DNA of 64,000 nt, taken from contig NZ_JAERRB010000002.1 in assembly GCF_016735595.1 (NCBI RefSeq), forward strand, positions 632,996 to 696,995. Reading direction: 5' to 3'. A program made the translations under genes and the position numbers. This stretch comes from Chryseolinea lacunae. Its GTDB lineage: Bacteria > Bacteroidota > Bacteroidia > Cytophagales > Cyclobacteriaceae. The notes under the pieces were generated by a model that was given only the letters and a program-made list of their open reading frames with translations, ran no database searches and had not been told where the DNA came from. Shown here in pieces: positions 6,729-22,795 of this stretch; position 1 is the first letter of the stretch; every line of letters begins with the position of its first letter.

Positions 6729-6745
6729 ACGAATTTCCAAGAAAC

Positions 6746-6851
6746 TGGCGCGAGTTTGCAACTCGTGCCTACAAATTGCCAAGTCTCCGACTTGGCAGAC
6801 AAAGTCGGAGACTTTGTACAAGTAAGGCACGAGTTGCAAACTCGCGCCAGC
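6746..6851. repeat. BIME-like palindromic element beside the RAYT gene
   Basis: Two perfect 25-base inverted arms (6746-6770 and 6827-6851; core GCGAGTTTGCAACTCG) enclose a second perfect 13-bp hairpin (AAGTCTCCGACTT at 6782-6794 with its complement at 6803-6815). Each outer arm also has its own short hairpin, GAGTT-TGC-AACTC. Nested REP-type palindromes of this design are the usual target of RAYT transposases, and the RAYT gene starts 33 bases downstream. Confidence 0.85.
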
Positions 6852-6883
6852 GTCTCTATATTATTCCCGCCAACCCCGTTAAC

Positions 6884-7435
6884 ATGAGCCGCAAATACAA
6901 AATTCGAAACCAAGACAAACTCTATTTTGTAACCTTCACGGTTATTCAATGGCTCGATGTCTTTACACGCACAGTCTACAAAGACATTCTCCTTGACAGC
7001 ATACGCTACTGCCAAAAAGCAAAAGGTCTTGAAATATGGGCATACTGCATCATGACAAATCATGCCCATTTCATTATGGGGCGAAACGGGACGATGGCCC
7101 TTGAACACATCATTCGCGACCTGAAGAAGTTTACGGCAAAAAGGATTGTAGAGGCCATCGAAAATAATCCCCAGGAGAGTCGAAGAGAATTGTTTCTTTG
7201 GCTGTTTCGCAAAGCAGGAAAATACAACCCTAACAACGAGAACATCCAGTTTTGGCAACAAGGAAGCCACGCCGTGGAGCTAAGCACCAACCACATGCTC
7301 GACCAACGATTGGATTATATTCACAACAACCCAGTGAAGGCCGGCATCGTACTCTCGCCAGAACACTATTTGTATAGCAGCGCGATAAACTATGCAGGAC
7401 TGCCGGAGAAATTGTTGGATGTTATGTTGATTTAA
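6884..7435 (+). CDS. REP-associated tyrosine transposase (RAYT, Y1 family)
   Basis: A 183-residue single-domain transposase related to IS200/IS605 TnpA. The HUH metal-binding pair is in MTNHAHFIM (H60, H62). The probable catalytic tyrosine is Y145 in DYIHNNPVKAG, a signature of the TnpA_REP group. RAYTs cut and join single-stranded DNA at REP hairpins and are thought to spread REP sequences. The ATG at 6884 is chosen because the frame upstream of it runs through the palindrome. All key residues are present, so the enzyme may be active. No terminal inverted repeats or target duplication of an ordinary IS were seen. Confidence 0.88.
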   Translation: MSRKYKIRNQDKLYFVTFTVIQWLDVFTRTVYKDILLDSIRYCQKAKGLEIWAYCIMTNHAHFIMGRNGTMALEHIIRDLKKFTAKRIVEAIENNPQESRRELFLWLFRKAGKYNPNNENIQFWQQGSHAVELSTNHMLDQRLDYIHNNPVKAGIVLSPEHYLYSSAINYAGLPEKLLDVMLI

Positions 7436-20345: not shown

Positions 20346-20855
20346 ATGAAAATCGGACTTCTGTCGGATACCCACAGCTACCTTGATCCAAAGGTCTTTG
20401 ATTATTTTAAAGACTGTCATGAGATATGGCACGCAGGAGACATCGGCGATCATGCCGTGCTCGACCAGCTCTCTGCGTTCAAACCTGTGCGCGCGGTGTT
20501 TGGCAATATCGACGACAAAGTGATTCAGACTTCCTATCCGGAAGACATGCGGCTCACCATTGAAGGTGTGAAAATATGGATGACGCATATTGGTGGCGTG
20601 CCACCCAACTACAACCCACGTGTCAAGAAGTTTTTGCAGCAGCAAGCCCCCGATCTTTTCATTTGTGGGCACTCACATATTTTGCGCATTAAGCGCGATG
20701 CTAAATTCAACAACATGCTCTATGTCAATCCTGGTGCTGCCGGGCAACATGGGTTTCATTTGGTGAAGACGATTGTGCGATTTGAGATTGCTGCAGGGAA
20801 GATTATGAATATGGAGGTGATTGAATTGGGTAAGCGGGGAGTTATTGCTGAGTAA
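20346..20855 (+). CDS. YfcE/MJ0936-type metallophosphoesterase
   Basis: A 169-residue calcineurin-like phosphodiesterase. Metal-ligand motifs are complete: SDTHS (D8, H10), HAGDIGD, GNID, THIGG and GHSH. Family members cleave phosphodiester substrates with Mn2+ or Ni2+; natural substrate is unknown. A candidate -7 element TATTTTTA (20334-20341) lies five bases ahead of the ATG, which would make the message almost leaderless. It is the last gene before the large inverted repeat. Confidence 0.88.
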   Translation: MKIGLLSDTHSYLDPKVFDYFKDCHEIWHAGDIGDHAVLDQLSAFKPVRAVFGNIDDKVIQTSYPEDMRLTIEGVKIWMTHIGGVPPNYNPRVKKFLQQQAPDLFICGHSHILRIKRDAKFNNMLYVNPGAAGQHGFHLVKTIVRFEIAAGKIMNMEVIELGKRGVIAE

Positions 20856-20912
20856 TAAAGTCTTTTTCTGAACGGTTGGTGGGATAGCTACGGTTGTCAA
20901 ATATTTCATTGG

Positions 20913-21046
20913 GCATTTTATAGCCCCGCTCCCGGGCCGCGGAGGCCCCGCATGTTCCCATCAGGGCTAGATCCGATCCGCACGTGCCATTGCCAGGCCA
21001 AAGATCGTATCAGGCCCTGATAGGAACATGCTGGAGAGAGGTGTGG
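20913..21046 (+). repeat. Structured inverted-repeat arm A
   Basis: Arm A of a pair (arm B at 21299-21433, inverted). It folds as a 17-bp stem (20951-20967 with 21014-21030, one mismatch), an inner 9-bp stem (GATCCGATC at 20970-20978 with GATCGTATC at 21003-21011, one mismatch) and a 24-base apical loop (20979-21002) containing CACGTG and CATTGCCA. A GC-rich block (CCCGGGCCGCGG) precedes the stem. The stems differ from those of arm B at paired positions while pairing is kept; the loop is almost identical. Confidence 0.85.
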
Positions 21047-21298
21047 GTGTGGGGTTTGTGTTTGTGAGTTCTTCGTAGTATGAAACAACATAAGTTAAAA
21101 TAGCAGGGCCGCATCACCCATTTTGTAACAAGGCAAGAAACAATAACAACCAAGTGCCACATGAAATGGAATGCAATAGTTAAAGAGCCACTGAAGAATC
21201 CTTTTGGATTAAAAAACAGAAACGCTGACCGGGCAAACAGAAAAATCGTCAAGCAAACCTACAAGAGCTCGTCACAAAAAGCACACACAGGTCACGCT

Positions 21299-21433
21299 CC
21301 CACACCATTCTCCAGCATGTCTCCATCAGGGCCTGAGCCTACCTTAGGTCTGGCAATGGCACGTGCGGGTAGGGTCTAGCCCTGATGGAGACATGCGGGG
21401 CCACCGCGGCCCGGGAGCGGGGATATGAAATGC
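21299..21433 (-). repeat. Structured inverted-repeat arm B
   Basis: Reverse-oriented copy of arm A. Its outer 17-bp stem is perfect (21316-21332 with 21379-21395) and its inner stem is GAGCCTACC (21335-21343) with GGTAGGGTC (21368-21376). The apical loop 21344-21367 matches arm A at 22 of 24 positions by my count. The 252 bases between the arms hold no convincing gene. Confidence 0.85.
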
Positions 21434-21494
21434 AAAAAGAAGCACCCTACTCTACCTTCTATCTCACAACACGTTCAATACAAAATCGAAGCCC

Positions 21495-22598
21495 CTACAC
21501 CTTAAAGAAAATCTTCTTCTTATAAAGAAAGTAACACAAACCCCAGTCCAAAGCAAACAACACAAGTGAAGTAACAATGCCCATAAGCAACAGCGGCACG
21601 CTGAGAAATTGCATGAGCCCATTGGTAATAGCACTGATGTAACCATTGAACCAACGCGCAGCAACAATCTCGATGAAGAGATAAATGAAGAGCGAGTTCA
21701 TGCCCACCACCGTGAAAAACTGCAAGTTGTTTCGATGTTTTTTAATGTCGATCCACCAATAGAACAACGCAAGGGCCAACAGACACCACCCACCCGATGC
21801 CAGCACAAACGAGCTGGTAGCAATGCGTTTGATGATGGGGGTGATTGTGACATCCATGGCATAGCCGACAACAAGAAACACCACGCCGGCAACAATGAGC
21901 CATTTCAATTTTTCGCGTTCAACTTTGTCAGACAGCAAGAGTTTGCCGGCCACGGTTCCCCAAATGGTGTGCGCTGCGGTGGGAAGGCAATTGATGGCTA
22001 CCCAGCCTCCGTCGTTTATTTTGTTCATCAACACCAGGTCCATGTAGTTGCCAAAATTGTGTTGGTCGGTGAAGGGTTCGCTGAAGCCGGGAATGTTTGT
22101 GAAACGATAGAGTATTTCTGTGAGCACCAGCAAGCCCACGCTAAACACCACTTGCGACGTCATGGACCACCGGAATACCAGAAACGCTACCAGCGTGGTG
22201 AAAGACAGTTGGGTGAGCACATCCCATAGTTCGAACGACAAGCCGTCGGGACGCACAGCGTAATCTAAAACGCCCCAGAAAAATAACCACGCAGACCGTT
22301 TCAGTGTTTTCGTGAATGACTCGGCCCACGCCATGCCTTGTTCCTGCTGGCGGTGAAGGGAGTAGGCAAGGGCTGTGCCGGCCATGAACATGAAGCCGGG
22401 CTGCACCAGATCCCAGAAACGCAGGCCGTTCCAGGGATGATGGAAGAACTGGATAAAGAAGTACGACAACACGGTTCCTTCGGTAGCTTCGAACAAATGT
22501 TCATAGAGGCGTGTGCTTTCAAGGACCAGTAAGATCATGATGAGGCCGCGCATAAAGTCGAGGGAGAGCAGGCGGTTGTTGGTTTGGGGCGAGGTCAT
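21495..22598 (-). CDS. Multi-spanning membrane acyltransferase-like protein (DUF5009/HGSNAT type)
   Basis: A 367-residue protein with about ten membrane helices. The start RLLSLDFMRGLIMILLVLES and later PGFMFMAGTALAYSL resemble the heparan-alpha-glucosaminide N-acetyltransferase-like group, in which cytosolic acetyl-CoA acetylates a sugar amine on the other side of the membrane. The basic C-terminus YKKKIFFKV is cytoplasmic. The ATG at 22598 (MTSPQTNNR) fits better than the upstream start at 22649. Substrate is unknown. It is transcribed away from the SusC gene. Confidence 0.75.
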   Translation of the reverse strand: MTSPQTNNRLLSLDFMRGLIMILLVLESTRLYEHLFEATEGTVLSYFFIQFFHHPWNGLRFWDLVQPGFMFMAGTALAYSLHRQQEQGMAWAESFTKTLKRSAWLFFWGVLDYAVRPDGLSFELWDVLTQLSFTTLVAFLVFRWSMTSQVVFSVGLLVLTEILYRFTNIPGFSEPFTDQHNFGNYMDLVLMNKINDGGWVAINCLPTAAHTIWGTVAGKLLLSDKVEREKLKWLIVAGVVFLVVGYAMDVTITPIIKRIATSSFVLASGGWCLLALALFYWWIDIKKHRNNLQFFTVVGMNSLFIYLFIEIVAARWFNGYISAITNGLMQFLSVPLLLMGIVTSLVLFALDWGLCYFLYKKKIFFKV

Positions 22599-22795
22599 AT
22601 CCGGTGTTTTTACGATTACGATGGTAAGGAGATCCTGAGGCAAGGACAAATCCGGTTTAGGTTGGTGAAACGTTTGCGTTGCATTTTGTGGATAAATAGA
22701 TCGTTGTTTATCAGACTCCTACCTCTTTCTTTCCCTAACTTCCTACTAACGAAAATAGAAGTTCGTCATTTTGAATCACTCTAACCCACATTTTA

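Follow-up and report, generated by a model that had tools for sequence, protein, structure and literature searches.

A new family of dispersed structured repeats in Chryseolinea lacunae and its order, probably mobile and most likely kept at the DNA level

Results

Two inverted copies of a structured repeat in the window

The window is the whole stretch of DNA that was analysed, 64,000 nucleotides of the forward strand of a Chryseolinea lacunae contig, and positions given without a contig or locus name refer to it. Two inverted copies of a repeat, each roughly 200 bases long, lie between a metallophosphoesterase gene at 20346-20855 (Pfam Metallophos_2), directly behind which the left copy starts, and a 384-aa frame at 21495-22649 (without a Pfam match at E 0.001), directly behind which the right copy ends. 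A repeat search of the window recovered the two inverted arms described by a first-pass annotation of the same DNA; they occupy 20905-21064 and 21282-21441, are 160 nt long and 82% complementary, and each holds a 32-nt stem pair enclosing a 24-nt loop. The near-identity claimed for the apical loops was confirmed (22 of 24 positions agree after reverse-complementing the right arm), and both of the quoted stem changes, outer and inner, are present in the sequence. The stem comparison needs the right arm inverted because both hairpins are near-palindromic. The annotated extent had to be corrected, as the repeat reaches past the arms to a 5' motif at 20869-20887 on the plus strand and 21459-21477 on the minus strand. 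This motif begins about 45 nt upstream of the core in each copy, and a G/T-rich tail comes after the core.

20869-20887, plus strand: 5' motif of the left copy, TGARCGNNNNGTGNGATAG (pattern search)
20913-21035, plus strand: core of the left copy, both hairpins (R2 match)
20934-20948, plus strand: small hairpin 1 of the left copy, GGGCC-GCGGA-GGCCC (sequence, DNA fold, alignment helix 1)
20950-21031, plus strand: long hairpin 2 of the left copy, apical loop 20979-21002 (repeat search, covariation, DNA fold)
21036-21064, plus strand: G/T-rich tail of the left copy (common to many Chryseolinea copies)
21066-21280, no strand: spacer between the copies (no significant similarity to the other spacers compared)
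21282-21310, minus strand: G/T-rich tail of the right copy, C/A-rich on the plus strand (sequence)
21311-21433, minus strand: core of the right copy, both hairpins (R2 match)
21315-21396, minus strand: long hairpin 2 of the right copy, apical loop 21344-21367 (repeat search, DNA fold)
21398-21412, minus strand: small hairpin 1 of the right copy (sequence, DNA fold)
21459-21477, minus strand: 5' motif of the right copy (pattern search, G000:C12:654454-654472)

Against model R2, which was built from diverse copies, the left core scored 119.6 bits (E 2.8e-33) and the right core 125.4 bits (E 5.7e-35); since the window copies are among the training rows of R2, these values confirm rather than test the matches. 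Independently of R2, matches to the arms occur elsewhere in the own genome with E down to 8.4e-47. With R2 at E up to 1 the 64-kb window yielded no third copy; its two weaker hits are the same palindromes matched in antisense, as shadows. In single-stranded DNA folding, each copy outperformed 200 of 200 shuffles on either strand (z -3.7, -5.6, -5.1 and -6.8). The 5' motif was found at eight sites in the own genome (G000), seven in G001, nine in G002 and none in G003-G005, and the reversed-pattern control gave none. By coordinates, 20 of these 24 sites head a full copy, three fall in palindromic remnants and one stands alone (G001:C7:577335). A coding reading of the complementary strand behind the core (GGAG then ATGAAATG) was not adopted, because by eye the spacing to the 5' motif shifts out of frame.

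Copy number and distribution

Searching the genome and its relatives, the check proposed with the annotation, yielded many further copies. Covariance model R1 returned at least 28 full-length matches and one partial match in the 7.9-Mb assembly, where 29 of the 30 scored candidates matched. Scoring stopped at 30 candidates per genome with R1, at 10 in the order-level search and at 9 in the class-level search, so copy counts are lower bounds in all genomes. The full-length count includes degenerate copies, such as L029 without hairpin 1 and L020 without the 5' motif. Seven tail-to-tail pairs account for 14 of the own-genome copies. Within the genus, copies were present in five of six genomes, own included, with none in G004, and R1 matched 11 of 118 genomes at the family level. 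At the order level R2 matched 26 of 341 genomes, representing 12 of 122 genera and six families; the best E was below 1e-9 in nine of the 26 and between 1.7e-9 and 7.3e-4 in the other 17. The class-level search gave matches at E 1e-4 in nine of 395 genomes, four of them from the same order, and four of the five outside it match the apical part of the model only. What this apical part matches in these four genomes (L264, L265, L266 and L267) is a repeat with CCGCACAAGCC...CAGACCAAAGC, which is perhaps a phylum-wide relative of the apical hairpin. Viral contigs searched by exact pattern, and plasmids and phages searched by blastn with the left copy, gave no match to the repeat. No description of the two-hairpin repeat was found in the open-access literature searched, mostly the openings of abstracts.

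A conserved fold with replaceable stems

The core spans 122-123 model positions and two hairpins. Inspected by eye, the families share one skeleton, in which GCTCC is followed by hairpin 1 around GGCC, by hairpin 2, which has internal loops, and by CTG(G/A)A. Copies of the window's family typically have the apical loop CCGCACATGCCnnTGCCAGGCCAAAG; elsewhere the apex varies and may hold extra hairpins. Between genera the stem letters are replaced almost completely while pairing is kept, and conserved sequence is found in the apical loop and in the GGCC hairpin. Among 43 distinct rows, 28 of 34 pairs change on both sides (24 of 28 in the long hairpin), and the covariation score of 0.519 (0.154 in shuffles) was reached by none of 500 shuffles, one antisense shadow row having remained in alignment A5 and hence in both R2 and this test. 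Sliding the partners in the same rows lowered the share of paired cells from 87% to 29-41%. The number of further pair types did not exceed that in shuffles, being reached by 154 of 500 for the 43 rows and by 132 of 500 for 55 sequences. Model-fitted alignments lean towards the structure of the model, and MAFFT alignments, built without structure, agree with them; in that of the 55 sequences, 20 of 34 pairs change on both sides.

The 79-copy alignment was obtained after removing 38 of 117 rows as antisense shadows. Stem changes that break pairing are not as frequent as those that keep it, for 92.6% of long-hairpin cells are still paired in the alignment of 55 sequences. The copies are related and the cell counts therefore not independent. 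A single T.G column is constant in 69 of the 79 copies, and the neighbouring internal-loop column is mostly unpaired. Together the alignments, which hold 43 to 79 copies, give strong support to the earlier suggestion of selection on the folded form, or else to an active maintenance of that form.

Pairs, sister-species sites and genomic context

The corresponding sites in the sister species G001 and G002 were sought for five of the seven pairs, and none of the five was found there; three of the sites are colinear and two are synteny breaks. The gap holding pair L010:3305-3936 measures 885 bp (856 against G002), while the bounding blocks lie about 250 bp apart in G001 and G002, where the genes are parted by a terminator-like hairpin (by eye). 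For pair L016:3037-3674 the matching site spans about 170 bp in G001 and about 150 bp in G002, and the 2.5-kb gap of the wide pair L016:12807-14169 compares with about 0.73 kb in either genome. The two sequences flanking the window pair are 27 kb from each other in G001 and 33 kb in G002, and their relative orientation is changed; the second L010 pair has its flanks at different places in these genomes. A nhmmer search (E up to 0.1) of the matching stretches L165-L174 and L178-L181 revealed no copy. Between the copies of the widest pair lies a 234-aa frame (L016:13188-13892) without a Pfam match at E 0.001.

Synteny also ends at or near copies in L045, L046, L051 and L055. Copies are retained at the matching G001 and G002 sites L044/L050, L051/L054 and L048/L049, and at L047/L062 a full copy in G001 corresponds to a palindrome of two 5' halves in G002. 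Such short palindromes of two inverted 5' halves occur at L030:2158-2328, L062:2532-2703 and L258:8626-8780 and are probably deletion products of tail-to-tail dimers. Present and absent sites could be aligned only within genes, their intergenic flanks lacking alignment (by eye), and no target duplication was established. At L211:3839-4107, in a genome of another family, two tail-to-tail copies are separated by 22 bases. By eye, the copies in L059, L091, L093, L100, L101 and L104 lie between or beside other genome-specific palindromic repeats, as if the two shared insertion sites.

A pair is not a single fixed unit, and its spacer is not shared: among the spacers of six of the seven pairs no significant common sequence was found, the best cross-match being 17 nt (E 0.007). 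Single and tandem copies exist besides the pairs. The MITE-like option raised in the first-pass annotation therefore stands in part, with a mobile MITE-like repeat fitting best and a classical MITE contradicted by the unshared spacers and the single and tandem copies. Pair geometry as a mere by-product of convergent genes was rejected, because the L016 pair sits between co-directional genes. Shared cargo was likewise not supported, since none of the eight inner proteins compared are related except the orthologous pair L048/L049.

The neighbours are diverse. A Pfam survey that took in 133 of the 171 neighbour proteins gave 162 families, none in more than four proteins. Among the 133, no transposase family reached two members, single-member families being mostly not listed. 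Neighbour orientation was taken from longest open frames with a minimum of 90 aa, of which some are spurious. Over all 98 copies the upstream gene is on the same strand in 51 and on the opposite strand in 43, the rest being without a frame. The 3'-side gene is on the opposite strand, pointing at the copy, in 62 of 95 cases and on the same strand in 33, and a riboswitch-like position is accordingly not the rule. Twenty of the 28 own-genome copies come after a same-strand gene, a possible hint of a role at 3' ends.

Wobble pairs and the folding strand

The long hairpin of the 79 copies, read without the constant T.G column, contains 1860 Watson-Crick, 8 G.U and 37 A.C cells among 2059. A control of 26 small SRP RNAs from the same order (four of 30 loci, cut by contig ends, were dropped) gave 658, 102 and 7 among 797. 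The G.U share of Watson-Crick plus G.U cells is therefore 0.4% on the strand read and about 2% on the complementary strand, against 13.4% for SRP RNA. With the constant column and hairpin 1 included, G.U occupies 81 of 2591 cells on the strand read, or 3.5% of its Watson-Crick plus G.U cells. The 23 well-paired Watson-Crick columns hold 1651 Watson-Crick, 6 G.U and 36 A.C cells among 1745 (SRP 91 G.U and 7 A.C among 745), but the columns were chosen at 85% Watson-Crick for the repeat and at 85% standard pairs including G.U for SRP, which favours the DNA-versus-RNA contrast and makes the unselected counts of 2059 and 797 cells the fairer comparison. When the constant column is left aside, about 20 G.T/T.G stand beside 42 A.C/C.A in MAFFT alignment A2. 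Counted as distinct column-genome events, 24 A.C stand against 6 G.U (p 0.0014 by a sign test that ignores shared ancestry).

Given the scarcity of G.U, the strand read is unlikely to be under selection of the RNA type, except if the constant T.G represents a fixed wobble. An A.C on that strand is a G.U or G.T on the other, and the A.C excess suggests the complementary strand as the one that folds, should a single strand do so. DNA hairpins tolerate G.T more than A.C, but less than RNA does. A DNA hairpin fits these pairing statistics best, and an RNA of the complementary strand is possible.

On the latter reading, many copies would be transcribed from the complementary strand, either as a class of structured non-coding RNA or as RNA elements of 3'-UTRs. 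The rare mismatches speak for it, and the internal loops resemble purine mismatches on that strand (by eye). Because the 3'-side gene so often points at the copy, a complementary-strand RNA would also often sit behind a gene. Minimum-energy RNA folds have a G.U share of 9.6% on the complementary strand and 4.6% on the strand read (SRP 12.6%); however, antisense SRP folds reach 9.8%, so the complementary-strand figure is not specific, and in the aligned stems that strand stays far below the SRP control. The window copies and 16 divergent loci gave no Rfam match to the element at E up to 1. Upstream of the core on that strand the copies have nothing in common but a C/A-rich stretch of low complexity (by eye), neighbour orientation is mixed and copies are absent at sister sites. 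The non-coding RNA option of the annotation is thus disfavoured in its simple form by the G.U scarcity, and we consider the complementary-strand version possible although rather unlikely. In a gathering-level Rfam scan of 20 further loci the sole result was an SRP RNA near one copy. Separately, L184:1-75 has a sub-threshold group II intron match (E 0.0095, not above gathering) about 70 bases from a copy at a contig end.

A functionless fold was also weighed. The palindromes would then owe their perfection to template switching and gene conversion, both from arm to arm and from copy to copy, and an extinct element would have left the copies behind as inert debris. Arm-to-arm templated correction is expected to yield compensatory changes without G.U intermediates, and stem variants recur within one genome as if swapped in blocks (by eye). 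Pure correction would, however, erase mismatches, and the persistence of the T.G column and of the mostly unpaired column adjoining it argues against this account, as does the conservation of the apical loop letters and the GGCC hairpin across genera. We regard it as improbable.

Y1 transposases and the repeat

The window region 6742-7435 has the only Y1 match of the own genome, a Y1 transposase gene at about 6884-7435. Its frame contains NHAHF, WQ and YIHNNP (by eye) and resembles subclass 2.6 as described in PMC6006769. The gene is preceded by its own long palindrome built on GGCACGAGTTGCAAACTCGCGCC, which differs from the two-hairpin repeat (by eye). Y1 matches were obtained in 13 of 14 tested genomes; G004 has two and no copies of the repeat, and G016 has three weak copies and no Y1 match. 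Neither the window's Y1 locus nor 30 of 51 other Y1 places, 31 loci with flanks up to 1.5 kb, contained a copy with R1 at E up to 10, and rescanning with R2 gave one 6-bit hit (E 6.9) and none that is credible, unlike in a REPtron, where copies flank the cognate Y1 gene. The GT[AG]G tetranucleotide, a feature of RAYT repeats (PMC6006769), is absent at the 5' hairpin foot; the conserved foot before hairpin 1 reads CTCC and the one after hairpin 2 reads CTGGA. One Y1 match (G001:C8:901752-902093) is separated by about 160 bases from the end of the block that corresponds to the window pair's right flank.

Spread by a RAYT had been among the options of the annotation. REPs are short single hairpins of 20-40 bp whose tail-to-tail and head-to-head dimers are known (PMC3733652), and atypical structures occur near the Bacteroidetes subclass 2.6 enzymes (PMC6006769). 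Despite these parallels and the Y1 gene inside the window, it is very improbable that the repeat is BIME-like and that a RAYT (TnpA-REP) transposase encoded in the same genome mobilises it, given the 31 Y1 loci without a credible copy, the mismatch between Y1 genes and copies in G004 and G016, and the different palindrome at the window's own Y1 gene.

Discussion

The repeat occurs in many copies with a conserved, covarying fold and few wobble pairs, is absent at sister sites and has diverse neighbours. The explanation we favour, with about an even chance of being right, is that of non-autonomous, dispersed, mobile palindromic repeats kept as a DNA hairpin for a putative trans-acting protein. 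In each copy one strand would fold into a small GC hairpin and, behind it, a long hairpin whose internal and apical loops are fixed. The fold would act as single-stranded or extruded DNA, more likely on the complementary strand. A protein acting in trans may recognise the loops and the shape, which would leave the stem letters free to change while they stay complementary. Copies would enter intergenic DNA, often as tail-to-tail dimers that may decay to short palindromes by central deletion, and several copies are located at synteny breaks. It is mobility in trans, the acting strand and the type of molecule that we infer.

Several observations weigh against the favoured explanation. The analysis found neither a transposase nor a target duplication or an exact junction, and outside the genes the regions compared could not be aligned by eye. 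Copies are kept at some G001 and G002 sites, and the order-wide conservation of the loops could mean a host function. The constant T.G column (69 of 79) could be a conserved RNA wobble on the strand read. More tentatively, and in our view rather doubtfully, the repeat may represent an order-wide, possibly phylum-wide class of mobile DNA, in which a folded single strand with fixed loops and replaceable stems is handled by a non-RAYT enzyme that processes single-stranded DNA.

There are few documented cases of structured nucleic acids that are conserved as DNA and not as RNA. The repeat family supplies many natural copies, extensive compensatory change, and sister species with and without copies, and the G.U versus A.C statistic with its SRP control can separate DNA-like from RNA-like covariation. 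The trans-acting protein, if found, would add a mobilisation system beside RAYT/REP.

Comparison with known systems places the repeat near several of them. The mobile/repeat sequence candidates (MRSC) of PMC11109978 are likewise structured motifs in many copies per genome with inconsistent gene orientation, and their structure is possibly relevant as DNA. The passages on them do not describe the two-hairpin motif, the main text contains no occurrence of Bacteroid- or Cytophag-, and the repeat differs in having no recurring transposase neighbour. REP/BIME/REPIN elements with their RAYTs are also dispersed extragenic palindromes, found as singletons and dimers, for which passive mobility is inferred; unlike them, the repeat has a two-hairpin core of about 123 nt without a GT[AG]G foot, a conserved long apical loop, and no nearby Y1 gene in the loci tested. 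MITEs and ERIC/Correia-type repeats are intergenic, palindromic and present in inverted copies, as is the two-hairpin repeat, which departs from them in lacking a common internal sequence and in replacing its stems with pairing kept across families. Integron attC sites, whose R-box core sites are acted on by an integrase, conserve structure over sequence and often lie behind genes, as the repeat does, and they are read as DNA hairpins, as is proposed for the repeat; in the repeat, the letters of the apical loop and hairpin 1 are conserved and the copies are dispersed.
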